A stretch of 37,733 bases of DNA from Bryobacteraceae bacterium (GTDB lineage Bacteria > Acidobacteriota > Terriglobia > Bryobacterales > Bryobacteraceae): contig JASIAM010000193.1 in the NCBI GenBank assembly GCA_030041985.1, forward strand, positions 1 through 37,733, written 5' to 3'. Position 1 is the first letter of the stretch; every line of letters begins with the position of its first letter. Shown one piece after another: positions 525 through 27,107 of this stretch. A program made the position numbers and the translations under genes. Below the pieces are notes generated by a model that was not told the DNA's origin, did not search any database, and saw only the letters and a list, made by a program, of their open reading frames with translations.

Positions 525-1508
525 TCATAACAATTCCGCTCCCCGCTCACCCTGCACACACGTATCGCCGTAAAACAGCCGGTGGCCATTCCGTAGTATT
601 TCGACATGAATGGCAAAAAGAGACCCTAGAGTAAGGTCCGCTTCGACGCACGGCTCGTATGGGTATGCGCCCGACAGGTTCTCGACATACACGCGCGAGC
701 TCGGATCGGTCTTGGCGTCCGCCGCCAGCCGGGCTTCAAAATGGCTGCCGAGGAAAGCGATAGTATCCGGAGCAGCCAGCGCTCTCGAAAGCTTGATCCA
801 GTGCCCGCGGTACTCCATCGCGAGGGTTACTGAGAACTCACTCCCCAGAGTCGCCCCCGCAGCGGGAACCGGGGCCGTCTGTCCGCGACTGAGGAGAACC
901 ACCAAATCTTCGGCGCCGGCCCGCCGGAGCTTCCGTTCCACGCGCGCGGCAAACTCGAAATCGGGCAGCCCAACTCCGCCGGGAAGCTCCTCAGCCAAGA
1001 TTTTGCGAGCCAGCTTCGCGGCGCGCCGGTACAGGGACAGTTCGGTCTCGTCCGGAGCAGGGTGGAGCGTCCTCCAGGGCACGTCGCTGATTTCCACATC
1101 CCCGGCGCCGATTGCCGCGTAAAGATCCCACGGAAGCAAGGCCAGATCCGCTATGCCGATCTTTCTCCAGCCTTCGTCGTGGCACATCTGCAGCAATTGT
1201 TGCGCGAGATTCCCGCCCGGGCGAATGTCTTCGATAACCGTGTAGGAACGTATCCACGGGTAAACCCGCGGTGACAACGCACAGAGCAAGGTCAGGGACC
1301 CGTCCCGCCCTGCGACCAGTAACGCCCTGTTCCAATAGGGCATGAAATTCGAGAAATAACGGGCCTGGTTCGATCTCCAGATATCCGAGTAGACTACCAG
1401 CGCGGGCAACTCCTGTTCCGCCAGAGTCTTCCTTGCCCAGTCAATGCGCGACTGGAATGTGGCTTGCGGAATCTCTGTCTTATCCCATGCAATCAGACCC
1501 CGCTTCAT
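525..1508 (-). CDS. Creatinase/M24-fold protein lacking the metal site (pseudoenzyme-like)
   Basis: A 327-residue protein with a creatinase-type N-terminal domain (about residues 1-130) and a shortened pita-bread C-terminal domain (about 150-327). M24 enzymes (aminopeptidase P, prolidase) bind two metals through D, D, H, E and E. Here the usual DxG...gYxxDxxRT stretch reads MEYRGHWIKLSRAL, with both aspartates gone. The GHxxGL histidine motif is absent, the 'EP' glutamate site reads FAIHVE, and the last glutamate site reads FYGDT. It is also about 40-70 residues shorter than a typical M24 protein. It therefore should not be a classical metallopeptidase. Creatinase and ectoine hydrolase are relatives that cleave small amide or amidine substrates without this metal site, so a related role or a structural partner role for the next gene is possible. 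The start ATG overlaps the stop of the upstream M24-like gene by 4 bp (ATGA), which implies translational coupling. Confidence 0.75.
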   Translation of the reverse strand: MKRGLIAWDKTEIPQATFQSRIDWARKTLAEQELPALVVYSDIWRSNQARYFSNFMPYWNRALLVAGRDGSLTLLCALSPRVYPWIRSYTVIEDIRPGGNLAQQLLQMCHDEGWRKIGIADLALLPWDLYAAIGAGDVEISDVPWRTLHPAPDETELSLYRRAAKLARKILAEELPGGVGLPDFEFAARVERKLRRAGAEDLVVLLSRGQTAPVPAAGATLGSEFSVTLAMEYRGHWIKLSRALAAPDTIAFLGSHFEARLAADAKTDPSSRVYVENLSGAYPYEPCVEADLTLGSLFAIHVEILRNGHRLFYGDTCVQGERGAELL

Positions 1509-2605
1509 TTCTGAAATAGCTTTCTCTCAGTCGTGTTGAGGCACTTACAACCACTGGCTGTCACCAGCAGAGAATCTCCGAAAACCATGTATCCTGACAG
1601 CGGAAGATAAGTGTTCGGATGCGCGATCACCACCATCCCCTCCTTCAGTTCGCAGTGCACATCTTCGAGAATGTAAGGATTCTCATCCGGGTGAAGGCCC
1701 AAGTTGTGTCCGCGCACGCGCGTGTATCTCGGCCCGGTATACTCGCCGAATCCATAGTGGCGGAAAACATCGTTCTGCGCCCGCGCCACATCGGCGATAT
1801 CGACTCCGGGCGCGATCCTGTCCTCCGCGGCTTGCCGGGCTTCCGAGAAAATCGCAAACGATTCTTGCTGCTTCGCATCCGGTTCGCCGAGCACCAGGGT
1901 CCGGCAGATCTGCGCGAAATACCCGCCGACTTGCGGAGTCAGTTCGGTAATTACGGAATCACCCGGCTGAAACCTGCGGCCGGTCGGAGGCTTCATGCCG
2001 GTAACCTCTACTCCACCCGAGCCGATCAGCATAAAGTTATCCTCGGCTCCATTCGACTTCAAAAACGCTTCTACTTCTGCAGCGAGTTCGTACTCCGCCA
2101 TTCCGGTCTCTACTATCTCCGCGAAATACTGATAACCCCGGTCGGACAGTGCGGCGGCCCGCATCAGAGTTTCGATCTCATCGGGGTCCTTGATCCGCCG
2201 AAATTCCTCCACCACGACCGTTGCGGAAACGGGACTCTTTCCGGTGGTTGCGCAGATGGAATGAACATACCGGGCCTGCATCAGTTCCATGCCGGCAATA
2301 GCTACCGCGCCGCGCTTCGCGTCGCGTGTCAGATCCTTCAGGCCCTCCATGAAATCCCGCGCACATGTCGCCGTGCTTTTTAGCGACTCCGGGAGGACTT
2401 CCAAGTCCCATGGATCGGATACGAGAATCCGAATCTCTCCCGAACGCGTTAGCACCGCCATCATGTGAGGGCCGGATAAGTTTACGTTGACCAGATAGCG
2501 GAAGAAATCCTTCCGCCAGGTGTGGCCGTACAGGAGCAACAGATCCCAATCGCGGTCCACCATGAGGTTGGTCAGTCGTGAAATACGGAGGTTATTTGGG
2601 GTCAT
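1505..2605 (-). CDS. Creatinase/M24-family hydrolase with altered metal-ligand positions
   Basis: A 366-residue Xaa-Pro-dipeptidase-like protein: creatinase N-terminal domain (about 1-130), then an M24 catalytic fold. The ATG at 2605 is preferred over the in-frame ATG at 2680 because the protein then begins MTPNNLRISRL, as relatives do, and the hairpin at 2642-2660 stays outside the gene. No strong Shine-Dalgarno is visible. Only one canonical ligand survives clearly, the histidine of GHNLGL. The first aspartate reads E (VITELTP), the second reads Q (GYFAQICRTL), the 'EP' glutamate reads H (VVIAHPN) and the last reads G (MVFGDSLLV). The same H and GD changes occur in the next gene, so the two are related and probably act together. 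Creatinase-like or DoeA-like metal-free hydrolysis of a small C-N compound is a reasonable guess; the substrate is unknown. Confidence 0.78.
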   Translation of the reverse strand: MTPNNLRISRLTNLMVDRDWDLLLLYGHTWRKDFFRYLVNVNLSGPHMMAVLTRSGEIRILVSDPWDLEVLPESLKSTATCARDFMEGLKDLTRDAKRGAVAIAGMELMQARYVHSICATTGKSPVSATVVVEEFRRIKDPDEIETLMRAAALSDRGYQYFAEIVETGMAEYELAAEVEAFLKSNGAEDNFMLIGSGGVEVTGMKPPTGRRFQPGDSVITELTPQVGGYFAQICRTLVLGEPDAKQQESFAIFSEARQAAEDRIAPGVDIADVARAQNDVFRHYGFGEYTGPRYTRVRGHNLGLHPDENPYILEDVHCELKEGMVVIAHPNTYLPLSGYMVFGDSLLVTASGCKCLNTTERKLFQK

Positions 2606-2726: not shown

Positions 2727-5700
2727 TTAGAAAGTTATTTTTGCGACAATTTGGCCTTGCCGCGGGACCGACGCCGTTGTCGACGTGTTGATATACCCGA
2801 AGCCGGAGACCACCGTCTCGCCCGCAGAGCAGGGACCCGTGGCACCGGAGGCGGTGATGCAGGTGGGCGCGGTCTCCGGGTTGGTGGTGCTCGGGGTGTT
2901 TACTTCGGTGCGGTTGAAGATGTTGACGAACTCCACCCGGACATTGAGGCTGGCTCTTTCCTTGATGGGGAACGTTCGCCCCACTCCGAAGTTTTCCACG
3001 GGCCGGCGCTGCTGGCGGAAGCCCTCATAGTACGCTGCACCCCCATACTGGCCAGGAGCGGGATTAGTCCACGCCGCCGGATTCAACGCAATCGTTTTCG
3101 TCGGGTCGAAGCAGTGGCAGTTGATGTTCACGTTGTAGAACGGCTGACCTGTGGGGATCTGATACTGAGTGTTTCCGAAGGTGAGGTTGGACAGAGTGGC
3201 GGTGGCGAGGGTGCTGGGGTAGCCGGTGGCATTCGTTGTCGGCACCAACAGGGGCAGCCCACTCGCCCAGGTGCCAAATGCGTCGAGAGTCCAGTCGCGA
3301 ACGATGTACGATATTACCTTGTTGCGCCCCCATTTCGGCAGAGTGTAGAGGATGCTCACCCGGGTCTGAAAAGGTTGGTTAAACTCCGAAATGCCCTTCG
3401 CCAAGGCGTAGTTTTCGGGGTTGGGGGTCCCACCCATGGTGTTTAAATTTTTGGACCAGGCGAACGCAGCCGTGGCCGAGAGGCCGTGAGAAATCCGCTT
3501 GTTGGCCGTCGCCTGCAGCGAGTTGTACCAGGTATCGCCGAGGGGCGCGGCGACTGAATTGACACCAGCGTTGAACTGCGGGTACGGCCGCAAAGACTGG
3601 GCTACGGTAGCGGTCAGCGGGAAGCCGGTGAAAGGAACCTTGTCCATAAAGGGTCCGGCAGCAGGCGAATTGAGGGGCGCCAGCAGAATTGACAAATCAG
3701 CCGGATTGCTCAGGCTCAGTCCATAGTTGCTCAGTAGCTGCGGGCTCAGGTAATTGTAGTTCACCATGGCCCCGCCCTCGTCTACGTAGCTCGGCCACCA
3801 GATCCCGCGATTGCCGACATAAGCCACGTCCACCACCAGATTGGTGGAGATCTCGCGCTGCACGGTGAAACTGTATTGATACTGCCGGGCCGGTCTTCCG
3901 GCATTCGGATCGAGGTATTGCGGCCCGGTTCCGGGAAGAACGCCACCGATCGGATAATAGCTGGGGCTGTAATTCGGCCATGCAATCTGAGCGGCTGTTA
4001 ACGGCTCGCCACGAACCGTCACGTTTGGCCAAGTCATGACCGGCTGGCCGGGAACGGTGGGGCCAAAGGGATTGCTGGATTGGGCGTTACCGGAGGCGTT
4101 TGATTGTATCTGGGCCGCGCCCGTACCGGAATAGAGGATGCCGAAGCCGCCGCGTAGCACGGTTTTCGGTGCGGCCTGATAGGCAAAGCCGAGCCGCGGT
4201 CCGAAGCCATAAGGGTAGTTATGCGCGAACTGGCAATGACAGGTGGCCTGGTAAATCGCATCGCCGGGCATATTTCCGGCGGTAGGGTCGACCAGCGTCG
4301 GGTCGAATTGCGGAGAACGGCCGTATTGCTCCGTATAATACGTCGAGTAGTCGTAGCGGAGGCCGTAGTCCAGCGTGAACTTTCGCGTTATCTTCCAGCT
4401 ATCCTGCGCATACAGCCCCAATTCATGTTTTCCATAGCGCGAGAGGGAGTTAACATCGACGGTGGCATTATCCACCGTGCCCAGCAGAAAGCTGGCATAG
4501 GGGAATCCCAGGCTGTAGGCGCCGACCGCAGAGGCGCCCACCCCACCCGTAATGGTCGACAAGTAGGGCTCGGCCGTTTCCGCGGAGGAGAAGCCGTACA
4601 AGCCTTGGAGGTCGTCCCTGTCCAACTCGTAATATCCTATGAAGTTCAGACTTCCCCCGAACTTGAAGGTGTGATTGTTCTTGACCCAGGTCAAGTTGGC
4701 GATGTTATTGAATTCCGAGTAAAGGTCGTCTACGCGTCCGCCAGGACCCAGTTCGCCCGCGGGCGGTGTGGCCCCTGCCCCCGTCATACCGCCGGCTTGG
4801 GCATTGTAGAGGCCAGTGACTTCAGGGAACGTGGTGGGGGTTGTAAAGGCAGCACTGCAGAGGCCCAGATTGGTGCAGGAATTGTAATTGGGTGTCACCG
4901 ACGGGCGACCCTCATCATCGGCGTTGTAGCCAACGCCCAAATGCAATAGAAGCGTCGGCGTGAGTGTGTGGTCGTAGTTCAGACGCTCGGTTTGCCCGTA
5001 AATGCTCGCGCCGAAGGTGCCGGAAACGGGTTGCGGCAGTCCGTCCGTGCCGTAGCAGGTCAGGCAGTAGCTGCCCGTTCGGCTCCAGTAGAAGGAAAGC
5101 TTGTCTTTGGGGCCAATGATCTGGTCGAGTTTGAGCGAGGGAATATAGGTCGTCCGGTTTTCAACTTCTGTGTTCTGAAAATTATTGATCGCGCTGTTGA
5201 CATTGCATGTGCCGCCAGCCAGGCAGAAGGGCGCGGGGAGTAGGGCCTGCATCGCCTGAGAAACCGACGAAAACCGCGATTGCGGAATGGTGTTGTTCGG
5301 AAATGGACTAGTGACCACTTGTCCATTCACCGTTCGCGCGGTAGTGGGATCGAAGATCTCATTGGCGTAGATGGTGGCGCCGGTCGGATCGGTTCCGAGA
5401 ACGTGATTCCCCGCGGAGGTGATGGCGGAACTGAAATTGCCGGCCCGGTACGCCGCCGTGGGAACCGTTTCCGCACTTTGCAAGCTGTTCGTGTCCTGAA
5501 TGAACTGCTCCCAGCCAAAGAAGAAAAACGTCTTGTCCTTGCCGTTGTAGACTTTGGGAATCCGTATCGGACCACCGAGAGTCAAGCCGTAATCGTTGCG
5601 CCGCAACTCCGGACGCAACAACCCGCTGCTGCCGTTATTCGTGAACGGGTTCCCCGCATTCAAAGCTTCGTTCTGACCATAATAGTAGAGGCTGCCATGG

Positions 5701-6485
5701 TATTGGTTCGTGCCCGACCTCATGACCATGTTCACCACCGCGCCGCCGGTTTGCCCGTATTCCGCTGAGTAGTTGCTGGTCTGTACGGTGAACTCCGCGA
5801 TTGCGTCCTGCCCAGGCGCGTTTTGCTCGTTGGCTCTTTGCACCATGACGTTGGTGTTATCCATGCCATCGAGCAGCCCCGTCTCCGACGCCGCCGGGTT
5901 GCCGTTGATATGAATCCCTGCGCCGTTGTTGAGTCCCGGCTCGTTAAAATTCGGGCCCACAACCAGCGCTCCGGGCAGCATGAACGTGCCGGCGTAGGGA
6001 TTGCGAATGCCGGAACTATCCGCGCCGACCACAAGCAGCGGCAACGCGTCCATGGCCTCCGTGGAGACAGTCTGGCTTAACTCTCCGCTTTCCGTTTTGA
6101 GCAAGGGAGCGGCTTCCTGGACAGTGACCGACTCGGTAGTGGTGCCAACGTCTAGCGTAGCGTCCACGCGAATGGTTTGCGCCGCCTGCACCTGGAGGCC
6201 TGTCCGGACAAATATCTTGAAGCCGGACGCAGTAATCGTCAATTGATAGATTCCCGGGGGTAACTCCGTCATTGTGTAATTCCCGGTATTCGAAGTCGCT
6301 ACCGGATACTTCGCGTTGGTTGCGGTGTTATTGGCTTCCACCGAGGCATTGGCGACTACCGCCCCGGCTGGATCTACGACCGTGCCCGTGATCGTGCCCC
6401 CGGCCTGCGCGAATGCGGCCGCCGCAATCAGGAAAAAACTCAGAGAAAGCCGAGAAAAATCTTTAAGAACAACGCGTTTCACCAT
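2727..6485 (-). CDS. Oar-like TonB-dependent outer-membrane receptor
   Basis: A 1252-residue outer-membrane receptor. The ATG at 6485 is chosen because GAGGGG sits 6-8 bp upstream and it gives a clean signal peptide (MVKRVVLKDF..., cleavage near AFAQA). Next is a carboxypeptidase-regulatory-like beta-sandwich (about 30-110: GTITGTVVDPAGAVV, later TLDVGTTTESVTV). A plug domain follows (about 120-260, with AIAEFTVQTSNYSAEYGQ and the SGTNQYHGS motif), then a long 22-strand-type barrel with DYGLRYDY and TVQREISTNLVVDVAYVGNRG. The last residue is phenylalanine (IVAKITF), as expected for BAM-assembled barrels. Such proteins are abundant in Acidobacteriota and are thought to import or bind oligomers. 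A conserved TCHCQFA motif near residue 765 recurs in the second receptor of this window. It is preceded by a secreted protein and a solute-binding protein on the same strand, and followed by the M24-like pair. Confidence 0.9.
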   Translation of the reverse strand: MVKRVVLKDFSRLSLSFFLIAAAAFAQAGGTITGTVVDPAGAVVANASVEANNTATNAKYPVATSNTGNYTMTELPPGIYQLTITASGFKIFVRTGLQVQAAQTIRVDATLDVGTTTESVTVQEAAPLLKTESGELSQTVSTEAMDALPLLVVGADSSGIRNPYAGTFMLPGALVVGPNFNEPGLNNGAGIHINGNPAASETGLLDGMDNTNVMVQRANEQNAPGQDAIAEFTVQTSNYSAEYGQTGGAVVNMVMRSGTNQYHGSLYYYGQNEALNAGNPFTNNGSSGLLRPELRRNDYGLTLGGPIRIPKVYNGKDKTFFFFGWEQFIQDTNSLQSAETVPTAAYRAGNFSSAITSAGNHVLGTDPTGATIYANEIFDPTTARTVNGQVVTSPFPNNTIPQSRFSSVSQAMQALLPAPFCLAGGTCNVNSAINNFQNTEVENRTTYIPSLKLDQIIGPKDKLSFYWSRTGSYCLTCYGTDGLPQPVSGTFGASIYGQTERLNYDHTLTPTLLLHLGVGYNADDEGRPSVTPNYNSCTNLGLCSAAFTTPTTFPEVTGLYNAQAGGMTGAGATPPAGELGPGGRVDDLYSEFNNIANLTWVKNNHTFKFGGSLNFIGYYELDRDDLQGLYGFSSAETAEPYLSTITGGVGASAVGAYSLGFPYASFLLGTVDNATVDVNSLSRYGKHELGLYAQDSWKITRKFTLDYGLRYDYSTYYTEQYGRSPQFDPTLVDPTAGNMPGDAIYQATCHCQFAHNYPYGFGPRLGFAYQAAPKTVLRGGFGILYSGTGAAQIQSNASGNAQSSNPFGPTVPGQPVMTWPNVTVRGEPLTAAQIAWPNYSPSYYPIGGVLPGTGPQYLDPNAGRPARQYQYSFTVQREISTNLVVDVAYVGNRGIWWPSYVDEGGAMVNYNYLSPQLLSNYGLSLSNPADLSILLAPLNSPAAGPFMDKVPFTGFPLTATVAQSLRPYPQFNAGVNSVAAPLGDTWYNSLQATANKRISHGLSATAAFAWSKNLNTMGGTPNPENYALAKGISEFNQPFQTRVSILYTLPKWGRNKVISYIVRDWTLDAFGTWASGLPLLVPTTNATGYPSTLATATLSNLTFGNTQYQIPTGQPFYNVNINCHCFDPTKTIALNPAAWTNPAPGQYGGAAYYEGFRQQRRPVENFGVGRTFPIKERASLNVRVEFVNIFNRTEVNTPSTTNPETAPTCITASGATGPCSAGETVVSGFGYINTSTTASVPRQGQIVAKITF

Positions 6486-6605
6486 GGTCCCCCTCACCGA
6501 TATATCCAACATCGCAAGCTAGACACACTAAACCTCCGGCCTTGCGGCTCTGCACCAATTAGTTAAACTGCTCGGTACTCAACCTCTACGCAAAATCCGT
6601 GGAGC

Positions 6606-7518: not shown

Positions 7519-8646
7519 TTAAAGTCCGAATGCAATTCGGGCTTTCGTTTCCTCTTCCGCCTTGATGCCCGGACCAAACAGTTTCTCGAAAAAACCTTCC
7601 TGCACCAGACGCCGGACGATGCTGTTATCGATGACCCGGCGAAAATCGAACGACTTCAGTTGGGCGGCCACTCGCGCATCTGGAGCGTGATCGATCTGGT
7701 ACTGGACCGCTGGAGCCAACACGTAGGGAACCCGTTCAAAAGTGTTTGACTTTGCATAGCTGTCGTAAACTCTTTCCACGTCGGCGGGCGTTTCACCGGA
7801 ACCGGCACTGTATTTCATGTAAGCCGCAAGAGCGAAAGCTTTGTCGTCATAGAAACGTTTAATGGCCTCGGCTTGGGCTTCGATGATCAGTTCCGCCAAC
7901 CTGGGGTTCGACGTCACGGTAGTCTTCTTAAATAGATAAACGGTGGGAGCGTAAATGTCGGGGTAATCGCTGATGTTGGCGAGACTCTTGAAGCCCTTCG
8001 TCTCAAGCCTGAAATAAACCGGCGCAGTCAGCATAGCGGCGTCGACGCGCCCACTGACAAGAGCCGCGGCGCGCCCGTTGACGTCGGTGCCGATCGGGAT
8101 CCACTCCACGTCTCTAGCCGTCAGCCCGAACCTGCTCAGAAGACCTAGCGCGTAGTTGTACGGAGCGTCGCCGATCTGGCTTACCGCGATGCGTTTCCCC
8201 CTCAGATCCCGCGCGCTGGCGATGCTTTCTTTGGCCATCAGGGAGAAAAGGCTCTTCTTGAACGAACTCGCGACCATAACCAGCGAGCCATCCTTGGAAG
8301 CGGCCTGCATGGCCTGCTCCAACGTGTAATTGGTCATGACCGCTTCGCCGCTTTCGACCATCGCAATGCCGGCGGGATGAACGCCGAAAATCAGAGTGAC
8401 GTCGAGCCCGTACTTGTGGTAGTACCCGCCTTCTTTGGCTATGTAAAACGGCCACGTAGTGCCGGTGCGCGCCGCGTAATTGATGGTTATCTTCTCATCG
8501 CTCCGGCTCTGTTGCGCCCATGCCCGCGGCAGAAACGCGAGAGCGGCAAGCACGAGCGCGAACCCTGCCATCCCAGGCAGGAAAGCGCCGCCTCGCCGCG
8601 CCACTAAGTTCCCTCGTAACGTGGTTCTCAGAAACCTGTTAGTCAT
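7519..8646 (-). CDS. ABC-type solute-binding protein, NMT1/THI5/SsuA-like
   Basis: A 375-residue periplasmic binding protein. The ATG at 8646 has a strong GGAGG about 6 bp upstream and is preferred over the frame start at 8679. A signal peptide (about residues 1-44, hydrophobic GFALVLAALAFLPRAWA) precedes the mature domain. The fold shows ITINYAARTGTTWPFYIAKE (the 'gyfkeeGLdV' entry), KYGLDVTLIFG, then VESGEAVMTNYTLEQAM, LRGKRIAVSQIGDAPYNYA and the hinge region GRVDAAMLTAPVYF. Such proteins deliver sulfonates, pyrimidine precursors, nitriles or aromatic acids to an SsuBC-like transporter. No permease or ATPase gene is present anywhere in the window, so it is either an orphan that shares a distant transporter or a sensor. 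The substrate cannot be read from the sequence. It is first in the minus-strand array after the regulator. Confidence 0.83.
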   Translation of the reverse strand: MTNRFLRTTLRGNLVARRGGAFLPGMAGFALVLAALAFLPRAWAQQSRSDEKITINYAARTGTTWPFYIAKEGGYYHKYGLDVTLIFGVHPAGIAMVESGEAVMTNYTLEQAMQAASKDGSLVMVASSFKKSLFSLMAKESIASARDLRGKRIAVSQIGDAPYNYALGLLSRFGLTARDVEWIPIGTDVNGRAAALVSGRVDAAMLTAPVYFRLETKGFKSLANISDYPDIYAPTVYLFKKTTVTSNPRLAELIIEAQAEAIKRFYDDKAFALAAYMKYSAGSGETPADVERVYDSYAKSNTFERVPYVLAPAVQYQIDHAPDARVAAQLKSFDFRRVIDNSIVRRLVQEGFFEKLFGPGIKAEEETKARIAFGL

Positions 8647-8831
8647 TCCTTCCTCCACGTGTCGCCCTCCAGCCGGCAAGCCGCCGGACTGAGAACCATG
8701 CGGACAGCAGTGAAGCGGCGCAGCGGGAATTGAAAGATATGTCGGCGTTCCAGCAACGCGATGTCTTTCTGCACGGAGTCATTCAGCCCCCGGGCCATCA
8801 AACGGCGCGATCAATATCTGTGATGTGTGGA

Positions 8832-10019: not shown

Positions 10020-11279
10020 TTGGGGATGACAATCGCCGAGAAGATTCTCTCGGCAAAATCCGGGAGCGGTTCGAAGGCCGGCGAGATTGTGGAAGCCTGT
10101 CCCGATCTGGTGATGAGCCATACGGCCACGTGGCGCTCGGTCAGCGTAATGCAGCGAATCGGCGCCACCAAACTTTACGATCCCGGCCGCCTGGCGATCG
10201 TTCTGGACCACATTTCTCCCGCCAAGACGGAAAAATACGCTGCCGATCAGCAGACATCGCGGAACTTCGCGCGTAATCACGGAGTGACGAAATTCTACGA
10301 CGTCGACGCGGGCATCGCGCATCTTGTTTTGATGGAAGCGGGGCACGTCCTCCCTGGCGATCTGATCGTAGGCACGGATTCGCATTGCACTATTTACGGT
10401 AGCCTCGGAGCGCTGGGAACCGGGATCGGCTATACCGAGGTAGCATCCGTGTGGATCACCGGAAAGCTGTGGTTAAAGGTGCCGGAAAGCATTCGCATCG
10501 TCCTCGAAGGCCGGTTTCCGGCAGGCGTCTATTCCAAGGATCTGATGCTTTACCTGATCGGTAAGCTGGGCGCCGACGGATGCAATTACAAATCGGTCGA
10601 GTTCTACGGCGGCACGGCTCGGGACCTCAGCATTTCTGAAAGGATGACGGTGACCAACCTGTCGATGGAGATGGGCGTGAAATGCGCTTTCTTCCCGCCG
10701 GACGACAAGACCGTCGAATATCTGCAAGGCAGGCTCCAGGACCAGAGCCGCTACCACCCGGTACTAGCCGATCCGGACGCCGAATATGAACAGGAACTCC
10801 CCGTCAATGTCGCGCAACTGGAGCCAATGGTCGCCTGTCCGCACGAGGTCGAAAATACGAAGCCTGTCGGCGAAGTGGCCGGGACGCATATCGATCAGTT
10901 GTTCCTCGGGTCCTGCGCCAACGCCAAGTACGAAGATCTGGTAGTGGCCGCGCAAATTCTCAAAGGACACCGCATTCACCCGGGCGTTCGCATGATTATT
11001 ACTCCGGGGTCAAAGAAGATCATGCTGGAAGCCATGAATTCCGGAGTCCTGCAGACTTTGATGGAAAGCGGCGGCCTCGTAACGAACCCGGGTTGTGGGG
11101 CTTGTGCCGGCGACGGTGGAATGCTGGCCGATGGCGAAGTCTGTCTCTCCACCGCAAACCGCAACTTCATCGGACGCATGGGAAGTAGCAAATCGCAGAT
11201 CTATCTGTCGAGTCCGGCGACGCTGGCGGCCTCGGCAATCAAAGGGGTCATAGCGGACCCGCGGGAGTTCCTGAACTAA
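10020..11279 (+). CDS. 3-isopropylmalate dehydratase-like large subunit (aconitase superfamily)
   Basis: A 419-residue LeuC/HacA-type large subunit. With LeuD it would dehydrate and rehydrate a hydroxy-acid using a [4Fe-4S] cluster. The cluster cysteines are visible: C299 (FLGSCANAKYED), C359 and C362 (NPGCGACAGDGG). Also seen are LVMSHTATW, GTDSHCTIYGSLGALGTGIG and the C-terminal RNFIGRMGSSKSQIYLSSP. Start: GGAGG at 10010-10014 suits TTG at 10020 (5 bp), giving MGMTIAEKIL as in many relatives; ATG at 10026 (11 bp) is the alternative. Its length matches the short archaeal-type LeuC, not the about 470-residue E. coli form. With a GntR regulator and UbiD beside it and no other leu genes, a catabolic role is more likely than leucine synthesis. 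Candidates include dimethylmalate- or isopropylmalate-like substrates. Confidence 0.87.
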   Translation: MGMTIAEKILSAKSGSGSKAGEIVEACPDLVMSHTATWRSVSVMQRIGATKLYDPGRLAIVLDHISPAKTEKYAADQQTSRNFARNHGVTKFYDVDAGIAHLVLMEAGHVLPGDLIVGTDSHCTIYGSLGALGTGIGYTEVASVWITGKLWLKVPESIRIVLEGRFPAGVYSKDLMLYLIGKLGADGCNYKSVEFYGGTARDLSISERMTVTNLSMEMGVKCAFFPPDDKTVEYLQGRLQDQSRYHPVLADPDAEYEQELPVNVAQLEPMVACPHEVENTKPVGEVAGTHIDQLFLGSCANAKYEDLVVAAQILKGHRIHPGVRMIITPGSKKIMLEAMNSGVLQTLMESGGLVTNPGCGACAGDGGMLADGEVCLSTANRNFIGRMGSSKSQIYLSSPATLAASAIKGVIADPREFLN

Positions 11280-11779
11280 TGGAATCCATCATCCAGGGCC
11301 GTGTTTACAAGTTCGGGGATAACATCAATTCCGACATCATTATTCCCGGCCGGTATCTGATCTACATCGATCGCGAACGGCTGGGACAACACGCATTCGA
11401 AATGCTGGGCGACGGCTTTCCGGACAAACTGCGGAGCTTTGAGATCCTGGTTGCGGGCCGGAACTTCGGCTGCGGTAGCGCGCGCGAACAGGCTGCGACC
11501 GCGATCCAGGGCCTCGGAATCAAGGCTGTGGTGGCTGCTTCGTTCGCCCGCACTTTCTATCGCAACGCCATTAACGACGGCCTTCCGATCGTGGAATCGC
11601 CGGCACTCTACGCCGCGGTGCAGGAGGGCTCCGAGATCCGCATCGACCTCGAAGCCGGCAAGATTCACCACGATGGCAAAGAATATTCATTCCCCAAGAT
11701 GCCGGAGTCGGTCCGCAAAATTCTTGAATTGGGAGGATTGGCTAATTACCTGAAGACTCAACTGCCCACAGGTCTGTGA
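11279..11779 (+). CDS. 3-isopropylmalate dehydratase-like small subunit
   Basis: A 166-residue LeuD-type swivel domain that completes the active site of the large subunit. The ATG overlaps the large-subunit stop by one base (TAATG), so the two are translated together in equal amounts. Motifs: KFGDNINSDIIIPGRYL near the N-terminus, GRNFGCGSAREQA at about 60-72, then ASFARTFYRNAINDGLP. In studied relatives the residues after the IIPxRYL motif sit near the substrate's side group; homoaconitase has an arginine there. Here the loop reads YLIY, without arginine, which favours a hydrophobic side group (isopropyl- or dimethylmalate-like) over homocitrate. That assignment is an inference from a short loop. 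Confidence 0.87.
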   Translation: MESIIQGRVYKFGDNINSDIIIPGRYLIYIDRERLGQHAFEMLGDGFPDKLRSFEILVAGRNFGCGSAREQAATAIQGLGIKAVVAASFARTFYRNAINDGLPIVESPALYAAVQEGSEIRIDLEAGKIHHDGKEYSFPKMPESVRKILELGGLANYLKTQLPTGL

Positions 11780-23345: not shown

Positions 23346-26300
23346 TCAGAATATGAAGCGGGCCACGATCTGGCCGCTGCGTGGCAGTGCTCCGGCGCCG
23401 CCTACCCAGTTAACATACCCATAACCAGAAGACAAAAGGCTGCCGACGCCGTTCAAGCTGTTGCCGTGGACGGTAGGCGAACTGACAAACGTCTCAGCTA
23501 CCCCAAACCCGCCGCCATCGGCTGGGGTGGAGTAAAAGAGGCGGTTGAAGATGTTCTGGAATTCCGCTCGGACCATGATGGACATTCTCTCCTTGATGCG
23601 GAAGGTTCGCCCGAAAGACATGGATTCGGCGGGTTGGCGCTGCCAACGGAAATCGTTGTAGTACGCAGCGGAAGTCCCGAATGTGCCAAAAGGTGGTTCC
23701 ACCCACGCATTGGGATTGAGCACCAGTTTAGTGGTGGGATCAAAATGCGAGTTGGGATTCACGATGAACAGAGGCTGGCCGGGTACCCGGTCCATGAAGG
23801 TATAGCCGCCGCCCCAGATGGCCGGGTTATTGGTCGGTCCCCGTTGTAGGTTCAGGAGCAGATTGTTGGCCGAGGGCGGCGATTGCATGATGGCACCGCT
23901 CTGATAGCGCAGAACACCTCCGAAATTCCAATCTCGCAGCACATACGACAGGAACTTGTTCGCGGTTGCCACGCGAGGCGTCGAATACAGATACGAAATC
24001 ACCAGCTCCTGGGGAATGCTGAAGCCGGAAATCTGCTTATTCTGCGGTATGTTGAACACGTCGTTAATGAGCGGTGGGGACGGGGTGACGTAGGACGTAT
24101 TGGCGTTAGTGCCGTTAGTCAACTCCTTCTCCCAAGTGTAGGCCACTTGTGTGCTAAGTCCGTGGGAAAGCCGCTTGTTCAATTTCACCTGGAGCGAGTC
24201 GTACCAGGTGTCCCCATCCGGAGGCCCGAGGAAGGGCGGGATGCCGTCCCATTGCGGATATGGCCGCAAGGCCTGACCCAGGGTTTGGGTGTTGGGAAAT
24301 CCCGGGTAGACGTTATTCGGATTAGCCAGATACGGGAAGCGGGCGATAACCGCCGGGTTGTTAATCTGGTCGTTAATCAGTTGCATGTCCGCCTGACTCT
24401 GCGTGTTGAGCCCGTACTGCGATAGCAAGCCTTGCGGAGTAAGTGCATTGTAATTCAGCCCAGCCAGCAGGGGCCCCGCAAACCAAGCGCCGCGGTTCCC
24501 CACATAGGCGGCATCCACTACCAGGTTGGGCGCAAGCTCGCGCTGGAAGCCGATGCTCCATTGAAAAATGCGAGGGAGCCGGCCGGTATCGGGCGCAATC
24601 GAAACAAATGGCGAGGAGGGTGGAATCACGCCGGGCGCGGCCGGAGTCGGAAATTCCGGATTAAAGTTCGGCCAGTGGACCACCGGGTTGCCAAACTTGT
24701 TACCGGGCCCATAGGGGTCCCCGTAGGACAATTGCCCCGCCGAGGCGCCATAAGCCGCGGCGGGAATCGAATAGAAGTCCCCGGCACTGCTGTTCAGGCC
24801 AGCTTGATCGACCGCACCCGCGTAAGATATGGCGCCTCCGGCGCGGAATACGGTCTTTGGTGTGATCTGGTAGGCCACTCCAAGGTGTGGACCGATGGAA
24901 AAGGGGTAGGCATTGGCGAAATTGCAATGGCAGGTAGCCCCATATTCGACGGTGCCAATTCGCCCGCCGATTAAGGAGTTGGGAGCATCGAAGTCGGCAT
25001 TCTGCATGCGGCCGTACTGCTCGGTCCAAAGGTTCGCGTAATCCCACCGCAGACCATATTCGAGAGTCAATTTACGAGTAACCTTCCAATTGTCCTGGAC
25101 GTAGAGGCCATAGGAATGCATACCTAGGCGAACATCGGCGGGCGCCGCCGTCGCCACGCTGCTCGTCACACCGAGAAAGAAGCTGGCATACCCGAATCCG
25201 CTGCTCGCGGTATTCGCAAAAGGTTGACCGTTTTGCCAGGGGTCGCTGGTCTGCTGGGCGGAAAACTCAAATTGTCCATCGGCGCGACTTTCATTCAAGC
25301 TTTGGATACCCTCGAACAGCGCGGTTGCCCCTACCTTATACGTGTGGTTGCCCTTGACCCAGGTCATGGCGGTGTTAAACGTCGGCTTATAATCATGCTG
25401 CTCCGGTGTAAGAGTAAAGGCCACTCCAGTATTCGCCGCAGCGGGGAATCCACCGCCGCCGGTCCATCCGCCCCCAATCAGGCTGTACATGCCCGCCATA
25501 TAGGGGAAGTAGTTACTGACTGCGAAAGGAATCCCATCGGGAAATAGTTGGCTCTGGTTGTAGGCAGGGGCGCTCTGAGGATTGGCAGTTTCCAGATAAC
25601 CCGCGCCGATGTGCAAGAGGAGAGTGGGAGTGAGCGTGACGTCGTAATTGACGCGCGCGGTATTCGCCAGGGAAGCCTGTGGCTGCAGGGCGGTGTATGG
25701 CTCCGGGAAGCCGTTGTTCTCAGGCGAGTTCGTCTCGTTGGCGGAATAGTATATTGCCAGCTTCATCTTCGCGCTGAGGTTTTGATCGATCTTGAGGGAT
25801 GGGATGGTGGTGTGACGGAAATTCGAATAGGCCGGCGCAGTATAGTTGAACAGCCCGGTCGTGTTGGGCGCCGGAATCATATTCTGGATGATCGCCGCCG
25901 TGGGATCCATCCGGCTCATGGGAATTGTGTTATTGGGAAATGGCTGCCGCACCTGTGCGCCGTTCACGGTCGCTTGCGTGCCGGGATCGAATATCTCATT
26001 CTGACAAACCTGCTGGCCAAGGGGATCGGGGCCGTTACAGGTGCCAGTCAGCGCGGCGCTGAAATTCCCCTGCCGCTGCGCCGCCGTGGGGACGATGCCA
26101 TAAGTGTTACTGGTGACCGCACTTTGCCGAAACTGCTCAAAGCTGAAGAAGAAGAAAGTCTTGTCGTGGCCGTTGTAGACCTTGGGAATATCGATCGGCC
26201 CTCCTAGCGTGAACCCATAGTCATTCTGCCGGAGCGGGTTGCGGAGGAGTTGATCGTTCTTCGGAGAGCCGATCGGGCCTGCGGTTGTAAATGGCAAGCC

Positions 26301-27107
26301 GGCATTCAGGGCTTCGTTCACGAAATAGTCGTACGCGCTTCCGTGAATCTGGTTGGTGCCGGATTTCATGGTGTAGTTGAAATACCCACCCGCCGCCTGA
26401 CCATACTCAGCGGCGAAATTACTAGTTTGGACGGTCACTTCCTGGATGGCTTCCACACCTGCCTGGTTGATTTGGTTCTGTTGCTTGAAAAAGCCGTTGG
26501 TGGAGTCCTGGCCCTCGATGTTGATGGATTGGGAGCTAGAAGGCATTCCGTTAATACGAAGGACGGTGTCCGTTGTAATCCGCGCGCCGGGCAATAGCTC
26601 TACCGATGCCAGAGGGTTCCGGATATTACCCAAGGCATTGGCACTACCTATGCCGGCCGCGGCGCCGACCAAAGTGAGGATAGGAAGGTCGTCCAACGTC
26701 TGGGTGGCTACGTTGCTGGCCACTGCCGCCGTTTCACTCTCCAGCAAAGGAGCGGCGGCTTCCACCGTAACCGATTCGGTGGCCGCGCCGACCTCCAGAG
26801 TCGCGTCAATGCGCACGATGGCTGCGACTTCTACGGTGACGCCTGGCCGCAAGAATTTCTTGAATCCCGGTGAAGTGACCGATAAATCGTAACTGCCGGC
26901 AGGCAATTGAGCGAGCGTGTAATTGCCGGTATCGGATGATCCCGCCTGATAAACAGCGCTGGTAGCGGTATTGGTAGCCTCCACGGCGGCGTTCGCAATG
27001 ACAGCGCCAGCCGGGTCAATGACAGTTCCTGTAATGGTGCCTCGGTCGGATTGGGCAAACATCGCCGAAACGACCAGAAAGGACAGAAAGATCGTGCGTA
27101 GTCTCAT
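23346..27107 (-). CDS. Oar-like TonB-dependent outer-membrane receptor
   Basis: A 1253-residue receptor, paralogous to the one at 2727-6485. The ATG at 27107 has GGGGAG 6 bp upstream and a standard signal peptide (MRLRTIFLSFLVVSAMFAQS). A regulatory-like beta-sandwich follows (about 22-105: GTITGTVIDPAGAVIANAAV), then the plug (AIQEVTVQTSNFAAEYGQAA, SGTNQIHGSAYDY) and a long beta-barrel ending in phenylalanine (IVARFIF). TCHCNFANAYP in the barrel region matches the TCHC motif of the first receptor. It is monocistronic, with a strong promoter at 27171-27199 and a terminator at 23309-23339, unlike the first receptor, which lies inside a longer array. No uptake or degradation genes adjoin it, so its ligand cannot be guessed. 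Confidence 0.9.
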   Translation of the reverse strand: MRLRTIFLSFLVVSAMFAQSDRGTITGTVIDPAGAVIANAAVEATNTATSAVYQAGSSDTGNYTLAQLPAGSYDLSVTSPGFKKFLRPGVTVEVAAIVRIDATLEVGAATESVTVEAAAPLLESETAAVASNVATQTLDDLPILTLVGAAAGIGSANALGNIRNPLASVELLPGARITTDTVLRINGMPSSSQSINIEGQDSTNGFFKQQNQINQAGVEAIQEVTVQTSNFAAEYGQAAGGYFNYTMKSGTNQIHGSAYDYFVNEALNAGLPFTTAGPIGSPKNDQLLRNPLRQNDYGFTLGGPIDIPKVYNGHDKTFFFFSFEQFRQSAVTSNTYGIVPTAAQRQGNFSAALTGTCNGPDPLGQQVCQNEIFDPGTQATVNGAQVRQPFPNNTIPMSRMDPTAAIIQNMIPAPNTTGLFNYTAPAYSNFRHTTIPSLKIDQNLSAKMKLAIYYSANETNSPENNGFPEPYTALQPQASLANTARVNYDVTLTPTLLLHIGAGYLETANPQSAPAYNQSQLFPDGIPFAVSNYFPYMAGMYSLIGGGWTGGGGFPAAANTGVAFTLTPEQHDYKPTFNTAMTWVKGNHTYKVGATALFEGIQSLNESRADGQFEFSAQQTSDPWQNGQPFANTASSGFGYASFFLGVTSSVATAAPADVRLGMHSYGLYVQDNWKVTRKLTLEYGLRWDYANLWTEQYGRMQNADFDAPNSLIGGRIGTVEYGATCHCNFANAYPFSIGPHLGVAYQITPKTVFRAGGAISYAGAVDQAGLNSSAGDFYSIPAAAYGASAGQLSYGDPYGPGNKFGNPVVHWPNFNPEFPTPAAPGVIPPSSPFVSIAPDTGRLPRIFQWSIGFQRELAPNLVVDAAYVGNRGAWFAGPLLAGLNYNALTPQGLLSQYGLNTQSQADMQLINDQINNPAVIARFPYLANPNNVYPGFPNTQTLGQALRPYPQWDGIPPFLGPPDGDTWYDSLQVKLNKRLSHGLSTQVAYTWEKELTNGTNANTSYVTPSPPLINDVFNIPQNKQISGFSIPQELVISYLYSTPRVATANKFLSYVLRDWNFGGVLRYQSGAIMQSPPSANNLLLNLQRGPTNNPAIWGGGYTFMDRVPGQPLFIVNPNSHFDPTTKLVLNPNAWVEPPFGTFGTSAAYYNDFRWQRQPAESMSFGRTFRIKERMSIMVRAEFQNIFNRLFYSTPADGGGFGVAETFVSSPTVHGNSLNGVGSLLSSGYGYVNWVGGAGALPRSGQIVARFIF

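Follow-up and report, generated by a model that had tools for sequence, protein, structure and literature searches.

The window analysed here, a 37,733-nucleotide stretch of DNA from a Bryobacteraceae bacterium (phylum Acidobacteriota; GenBank assembly GCA_030041985.1, contig JASIAM010000193.1), carries two overlapping genes, designated A and B, that encode proteins of the M24/creatinase fold. It is judged modestly probable that A and B each contribute one subunit to a single heteromeric M24B-fold enzyme that cleaves a C-N bond in small-molecule catabolism. The two genes are as follows:

1505..2605, minus strand: gene A, a 366-residue M24/creatinase-fold protein, the proposed catalytic subunit (Pfam match and fold model)
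525..1508, minus strand: gene B, a 327-residue diverged homologue of A, the proposed non-catalytic partner

The two open reading frames (ORFs) overlap by 4 bases (ATGA), and the start codon of A is likely the ATG at 2605, because the open frame of the orthologue at locus L012 starts at the equivalent Met. A matches the Pfam domain Peptidase_M24 at 114.5 bits (cut-off 23), and its best NCBIfam peptidase equivalog is PepQ_Arch, at 111.4 bits and thus far under the cut-off of 630. In Pfam, B matches Creatinase_N alone, at 18.1 bits and under the cut-off of 22, and gives no match to Peptidase_M24, although its structural model has the M24 fold. The AlphaFold2 models, each computed from an 11-sequence alignment, have predicted local distance difference test scores (pLDDT) of 83.9 for A and 85.9 for B and a predicted template modelling score (pTM) of 0.83 each. 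The best fold match of the A model is 2zsg_A (Z 34.6, root-mean-square deviation [rmsd] 3.5, 352 aligned), tied with creatinase 1chm_A (Z 34.1, rmsd 3.9, 352 aligned), and the B model is matched best by 9kwa_A over nearly its whole chain (VIA-align Z 25.7, rmsd 4.4, 308 aligned). The overlapping M24-fold pair that the original prediction placed at 525-2605 is thus confirmed by the two reading frames and their overlap, the Pfam match of A and the fold match of B.

The active site of A has been replaced in a specific manner. In an alignment with the Pyrococcus furiosus prolidase 1pv9, the residues taken here to be the metal ligands of the prolidase read D,D,H,E,E, and the five corresponding positions of A are E221, Q232, H300, H329 and G343, so that A reads E,Q,H,H,G and retains the His alone of the five M24 metal ligands. 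From the same alignment, the codons concerned are:

1943..1945, minus strand: Glu221 codon of A (first Asp ligand position)
1910..1912, minus strand: Gln232 codon of A (second Asp ligand position)
1706..1708, minus strand: His300 codon of A (retained ligand His)
1619..1621, minus strand: His329 codon of A ('EP' motif Glu position)
1577..1579, minus strand: Gly343 codon of A (last Glu ligand position)

Twenty distinct A loci were compared, namely the window, L009, L012-L021, L027 (Neorhizobium galegae), L045, L046, L062, L063, L064, L066 and L067; L065 and L068, which repeat L015 and L016, and two more N. galegae plasmids, 97-98% identical, were left out. Of the 20 compared loci, 19 encode E,Q,H,H,G; in the remaining one, L064, the codon for the first ligand is replaced by an in-frame TAG, and the other four positions read Q,H,H,G. 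Asn331 and Arg298 are kept in all 20 loci, and the residue following Gly343 is Asp in 19 of them and Glu in L062. These residues are maintained over considerable sequence distance: the rhizobial A protein of N. galegae, from another phylum, is 39-45% identical to 12 acidobacterial A proteins, and the A protein of L062 is about 31% identical to that of the window. The original prediction had named homologues with all of D,D,H,E,E preserved as one finding that would speak against it, and none of the 20 loci has them. Of the seven M24 proteins used for comparison, five do carry D,D,H,E,E: three from the window's genome (L003, L004 and L005) and a further two encoded on a Bacillus plasmid. The short methionine-aminopeptidase-like protein L008 of the same genome reads D,D,H,E,K, with the last column loosely aligned, and the solo divergent M24 protein L043 (genome G562) has A,T,H,D,E. 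L006 and an M24 match on contig C265, both from the window's genome, are not among the proteins compared.

Two of these loci deserve separate mention. L064:362-2152 lies on a short metagenome contig, in which the stop-interrupted A is accompanied by B in place, and the ornithine-cyclodeaminase and large aconitase-type genes are cut by the contig. L043 (8144-9352, minus strand), from another acidobacterium, has an N-domain motif that by eye resembles those of A and B, and this solo, partly degenerate M24 protein may be near a single-gene ancestor type.

At the five ligand positions, window B reads T,K,gap,H,G and keeps none of the ligands. Among full-length operon-type B proteins (n=11), residues at the first Asp position are T, A, C, S, V or G, and those at the second are always basic (K in 7, R in 4). 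Six of these proteins have His at the His329-equivalent, the others R (3), D (1) or Q (1); at the Gly343-equivalent, Gly is present in 10 and Cys in the eleventh. Because the residue at the His329-equivalent varies, the His is not a conserved property of B. The alignment indicates that Gly-Asp is conserved in operon-type B wherever the C-terminal segment exists; the C-terminal ~85 residues are missing in L013, L017, L020 and L046 (240-242 residues) and mostly missing in L066 (257 residues). Rhizobial B keeps neither the His nor the Gly; of these positions, it resembles the operon type solely at the second Asp site, where it too is basic. It had been proposed that two replacements, Glu to His and Glu to Gly, are the same in A and B and that such shared, specific changes suggest a distinct subfamily with new chemistry or a heteromeric enzyme. 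Both residues are invariant in A, and the Gly largely so in full-length operon-type B; the His part fails, and the argument from shared changes is further weakened by B proteins in which the segment is absent altogether. Treating the two replacements as one derived character of A and B that argues for shared catalysis was consequently rejected, since just 6 of the 11 B proteins have the His.

In 19 of the 20 A loci the next gene after A is B, with this order kept in both phyla, and the two B genes without an A (L044 and L047) are cut by contig ends. Both genes are under purifying selection. The ratio of nonsynonymous to synonymous divergence (dN/dS, Nei-Gojobori) is 0.06-0.14 for A in the 12 closest pairs; for B, with C-terminally shortened genes included, it is 0.10-0.19 in 9 of the 12 closest pairs, the ratio being undefined in the remaining 3 where synonymous sites are saturated. 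Given the invariant A signature, the adjacency of B and the low dN/dS, the original view of a distinct subfamily, and not of random decay, is upheld. In N. galegae VafX2 (L026:7989-10155), A and B are both annotated as split, by sequencing error or decay; the frames of HAMBI 1141 are open.

Conservation is distributed reciprocally between the two proteins. Mean column conservation (13 rows) in A is 0.556 for the N-domain and 0.795 for the C-domain. In B it is 0.651 for the N-domain, 0.472 for the C-domain and 0.326 for the last 83 residues, in a scoring that treats gaps as non-conserved and that includes deleted rows and one cut row in the B C-terminus. In M24B dimers, the N-domain reaches over the neighbour's active site. 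Because of the reciprocal domain conservation and the C-terminal loss of B, the alignments are read here as A retaining the active site and B retaining the N-domain that would cap its neighbour's site. Additionally, B modelled alone has pLDDT below 50 at residues 1-7, 80-82 and 84-88, and conservation in these segments ranks near the highest in the protein (21 of 321 sequence windows are equally high for residues 1-7, and 9 of 319 for 80-88), as expected if a partner orders them. The low-pLDDT segment of A (299-311, the His loop that holds the retained His) is conserved to an unexceptional degree, with 107 of 354 windows as high. These patterns favour the one catalytic and one structural subunit offered in the original prediction, which would be joined in a predicted A:B complex.

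The pair occurs in two gene contexts. In the first, the usual order in Acidobacteriota is a major facilitator superfamily gene, an aconitase-type small subunit, an ornithine-cyclodeaminase-family gene, A, B and an aconitase-type large subunit. Where enough flanking sequence is available, the gene after B encodes a homologue of the aconitase/isopropylmalate-isomerase large subunit in 15 of 18 A/B pairs, the exceptions being the window, N. galegae and L062; the genes preceding A in L066 were not recognised. An Amidohydro_2 gene follows in L017, L020, L045 and L046 (assigned in L020 by clustering with L017 and in L046 by blastp). Against the NCBIfam EutC model, the operon ornithine-cyclodeaminase-family protein scores 90 bits (cut-off 471.65).

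The operon large subunit is itself altered. Its three Fe-S cysteines are replaced by Ser, Ala and Asn in 14 of 14 aligned copies (for instance, L012:6080-7381), in which it differs from the isopropylmalate/homoaconitase family, and the DSH motif is retained. An alignment with the most similar solved structure, the isopropylmalate/citramalate isomerase 4nqy, gives the same cysteine replacements, and the L012 copy passes TIGR01343 (HacA/LeuC family) at 415.7 bits (cut-off 385.7). It is therefore possible, judging from these alignments, that the operon large subunit is a cluster-free member of the aconitase family. In acn2, a separate aconitase-family gene pair that is also present in the window and whose orthologues adjoin the A/B operon in several relatives, the Fe-S cysteines are C,C,C in 8 of 8 copies, and the small-subunit motif is GCGSAR, compared with GCSSGR in the operon. 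An exact pattern for the cysteine-less motif, applied to 396 Acidobacteriota genomes, matched the window's own genome only. Plasmid relatives of the operon large subunit comprise 515 records, all below 60% identity, and among the plasmid matches listed, 10 of 12 are annotated as 3-isopropylmalate dehydratase, by annotation alone. According to PMC8184944, aconitase X is a case of varied Fe-S ligation within the aconitase superfamily, and the aconitase X enzymes described there still bind Fe-S clusters via three cysteines.

The second context is that of N. galegae, with the order HyuA-HyuB-A-B-MmgE/PrpD, followed by an NMT1-type ATP-binding cassette (ABC) transporter and Amidohydro_2. The closest NCBIfam model of the larger hydantoinase/lactamase-type subunit is caprolactamase alpha, and because it scores 496 bits, below the cut-off of 1000, it is not a caprolactamase equivalog. 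The MmgE/PrpD-like gene scores 34.5 bits (cut-off 32.1). Similarly, L062 (G467, an acidobacterium that belongs to the same family as the window) has relatives of HyuA, HyuB, NMT1, A, B and PrpD together, as found by blastp, with its B only weakly similar (profile E 4.3e-9). No PF05378 (HyuA) match is present in the window's genome.

Taken as subunits of one enzyme, A and B would probably have arisen by gene duplication on the prolidase/creatinase fold. A would be the catalytic subunit, in which the dinuclear five-ligand site is replaced by the invariant Glu-Gln-His-His-Gly. Since that site is gone and replaced, A may be metal-free, as creatinase is described to be, or may hold a single metal on Glu221, His300 and His329. 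B would contribute mainly its N-domain, and its own active site would no longer be needed. The most likely reaction of A/B would be cleavage of a C-N bond, by hydrolysis or elimination, in a small nitrogen-containing carboxylic acid. Its pathway partners would be, in the first context, a dehydrogenase resembling ornithine cyclodeaminase together with an aconitase-family lyase that has no cysteines to bind a cluster and, in the second, an ATP-dependent hydantoinase/lactamase and an MmgE/PrpD protein. The surrounding chemistry may thus be ring opening of the hydantoinase/lactamase type or handling of imino or amino acids of the ornithine-cyclodeaminase type, and both contexts would add a hydro-lyase, of aconitase or PrpD type. 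The unusual nitrogen compound put forward in the original prediction is plausible beside an ornithine-cyclodeaminase-family protein or hydantoinase/caprolactamase-like subunits; the reaction is not pinned down, because the two contexts have, as far as seen, no further enzyme in common apart from Amidohydro_2 at some loci. A more far-reaching proposal, advanced tentatively, is that A/B represents an undescribed heteromeric M24-fold class whose active site has been rebuilt, either without metal or with one metal on Glu and two His, and which acts in a catabolic pathway, likewise undescribed, that includes a Fe-S-cluster-free aconitase-family lyase. On that reading, two classical metal-dependent scaffolds in one operon would both have an altered catalytic centre.

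A was compared with several known systems. M24B prolidases and X-Pro aminopeptidases (PepQ, P. furiosus 1pv9, Thermotoga maritima 2zsg) have the two-domain M24 fold over their full length, like A, which aligns with prolidases across the whole catalytic domain. In contrast to prolidase and aminopeptidase P, A has E,Q,H,H,G in place of D,D,H,E,E, belongs to a two-gene unit and has neighbours that are not peptide-related; public annotation of A relatives is nonetheless aminopeptidase P, M24 metallopeptidase or Xaa-Pro peptidase. Creatinase (1chm, 1kp0, 7yto) has the two-domain fold in common with A, at 19-20% identity in fold alignments; it is a single-gene enzyme that uses the M24 fold for C-N hydrolysis of a small molecule and is described as working without metal. 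Ectoine hydrolase (DoeA/EutD; 6twj, 6twk, 6yo9), also of the M24 fold, opens a C-N bond of a small cyclic compound, and an ornithine-cyclodeaminase-like gene, EutC, goes with ectoine use. It differs in that A is paired with B and with aconitase-like genes, and window A falls under both NCBIfam cut-offs (52.1 of 575 bits for ectoine_DoeA_2 and 36.9 of 613 bits for ectoine_eutD); rhizobial A scores 52.5 and 63.3 bits against the same two models. The dimethylsulfoniopropionate lyase DddP (4b28, 4s00, 4rzy) is a case of the M24 fold recruited for a lyase reaction, and is a single gene with a metal-binding site. DddP is matched by A (4b28; Z 29.7, rmsd 4.2, 346 aligned) and by B (Z 22.6), but sequence identity in the fold alignments is only 12-19%. 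Among the matches listed in full-text literature searches, no paper was found, judged by titles and the starts of abstracts, that describes the A/B pair.

Several observations weigh against a heteromeric enzyme. L067 has an A without a visible B; its 3.7-kb contig stops 120 bases past A, and a search of the genome concerned (G684, 85% complete) at E 1e-4 gave no B either. The pair is therefore adjacent at 19 of 20 loci, the exception lying near a contig end. The window A/B pair is without the other operon genes, which accompany a second A/B pair of the same genome. As far as seen, the two contexts have in common only NMT1-type transport parts and, at some loci, Amidohydro_2. Part of the low C-terminal score of B is due to deleted or cut rows, and the correlation of A and B distances (r = 0.87 over 91 pairs) is of a size that co-inheritance alone predicts. 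Finally, in an unrooted tree of 28 rows, built without L008 and the shortened B rows, A forms one group (100/98) and B forms one group (99/99). A and B as sister groups was considered and set aside; sisterhood is undecidable because the tree is unrooted with three groups, and the B branch is long.

The strongest alternative, though an unlikely one, is that A and B are non-enzymatic M24 relatives with a binding or regulatory role, like the eukaryotic Spt16 and Ebp1. B is without any ligands and its C-terminal quarter is dispensable, A is without four of five, and Spt16 structures are among the fold matches of A (Z 28.8 to 30.1); non-peptidase M24 proteins are documented in PMC3888471. However, the C-domain with the replaced ligand set is the most conserved part of A, and the operon is otherwise metabolic, with transporter, dehydrogenase-like and lyase-like genes. 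Somewhat less probable still is that A acts alone as a homodimeric enzyme and that B, merely adjacent, works separately, as a binding protein or as another enzyme of the pathway. A is full-length and gives a well-folded M24 model, G684 provides the A without a detected B, and B has features of its own, namely K/R at the second Asp position and, in most full-length copies, the C-terminal Gly-Asp. The preserved order of adjacent or overlapping genes in two phyla and in two otherwise different clusters argues for joint function instead, as does the reciprocal domain conservation. It is improbable that A remains a conventional M24 metallopeptidase in which only the ligand set is unusual: in the PDB it is closest in sequence to prolidases, dipeptidases and X-Pro aminopeptidases, but four of five ligands are replaced invariantly, the PepQ_Arch score is a small part of its cut-off and the identified operon neighbours are not peptide-related. 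Least probable by far is a decaying pair, for which the separation of the window copy from the operon, the L064 stop and the fragmented VafX2 genes could be cited, and which is largely refuted by conservation (open frames, low dN/dS, the invariant signature and two intact A/B copies in the window's genome).

If A and B do form one enzyme, then the combination of a fixed ligand set unlike that of peptidases, a partner subunit without catalysis and a neighbouring aconitase homologue that lacks the cysteines would mark a catabolic route whose chemistry has been missed by annotation. The pair would offer a test of how a metal scaffold is turned into another catalytic centre while a second copy takes a structural role.

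The window's genome holds one complete operon, on contig C226 (L009), in addition to the window A/B pair. Its sole ornithine-cyclodeaminase match at E 1e-5 is on C226, as is the sole close copy of the operon large aconitase subunit (74% identity, compared with 35% for acn2 in the window and 29% and 45% for LeuC-like pieces on C194). Because these operon partners sit only on C226, the window A/B pair would seem to be a second copy that has been orphaned or rearranged. Other genes of note in the window are:

7519..8679, minus strand: NMT1/THI5-like substrate-binding protein
10020..11279, plus strand: acn2 large subunit, isopropylmalate-dehydratase/homoaconitase family, with intact Fe-S cysteines
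11279..11779, plus strand: acn2 small subunit, LeuD/DmdB family

NMT1/THI5-like binding proteins are also found near A/B in L020, L027 and L062, which is an association only.

The distribution of the pair was surveyed in samples of 396 genomes of the phylum and 399 of the class, and in 237 genomes of the family. At E 1e-12, the B profile matched 1 of the 396 phylum genomes (the window's own) and 13 of the 237 family genomes, one of which (G562) is a weak match to the solo protein. At E 1e-50, the A profile matched 12 of the 237 family genomes, including the divergent G467; with G562 and G467 aside, the family lists of A and B differ by one genome, G002, in which B runs into a contig end. In the class, A was found in 15 of the 399 sampled genomes, from three families. 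G562 was rejected as a B carrier, as its match is weak (6.7e-13) and falls on the divergent M24 protein, next to which no other M24-like gene was recognised. Viral contigs gave 16 pattern matches, none of which is an A/B relative, and B relatives on plasmids were limited to three N. galegae plasmids. The presence of the pair outside Acidobacteriota is known from plasmids only, because the genome-contig scan used A alone, once.

Two very long minus-strand ORFs are also present in the window, at 2727-6512 (1261 residues) and 23346-27107 (1253 residues). The first of these lies directly upstream of A and, judged by eye, resembles a carboxypeptidase-regulatory/TonB-dependent outer-membrane protein.

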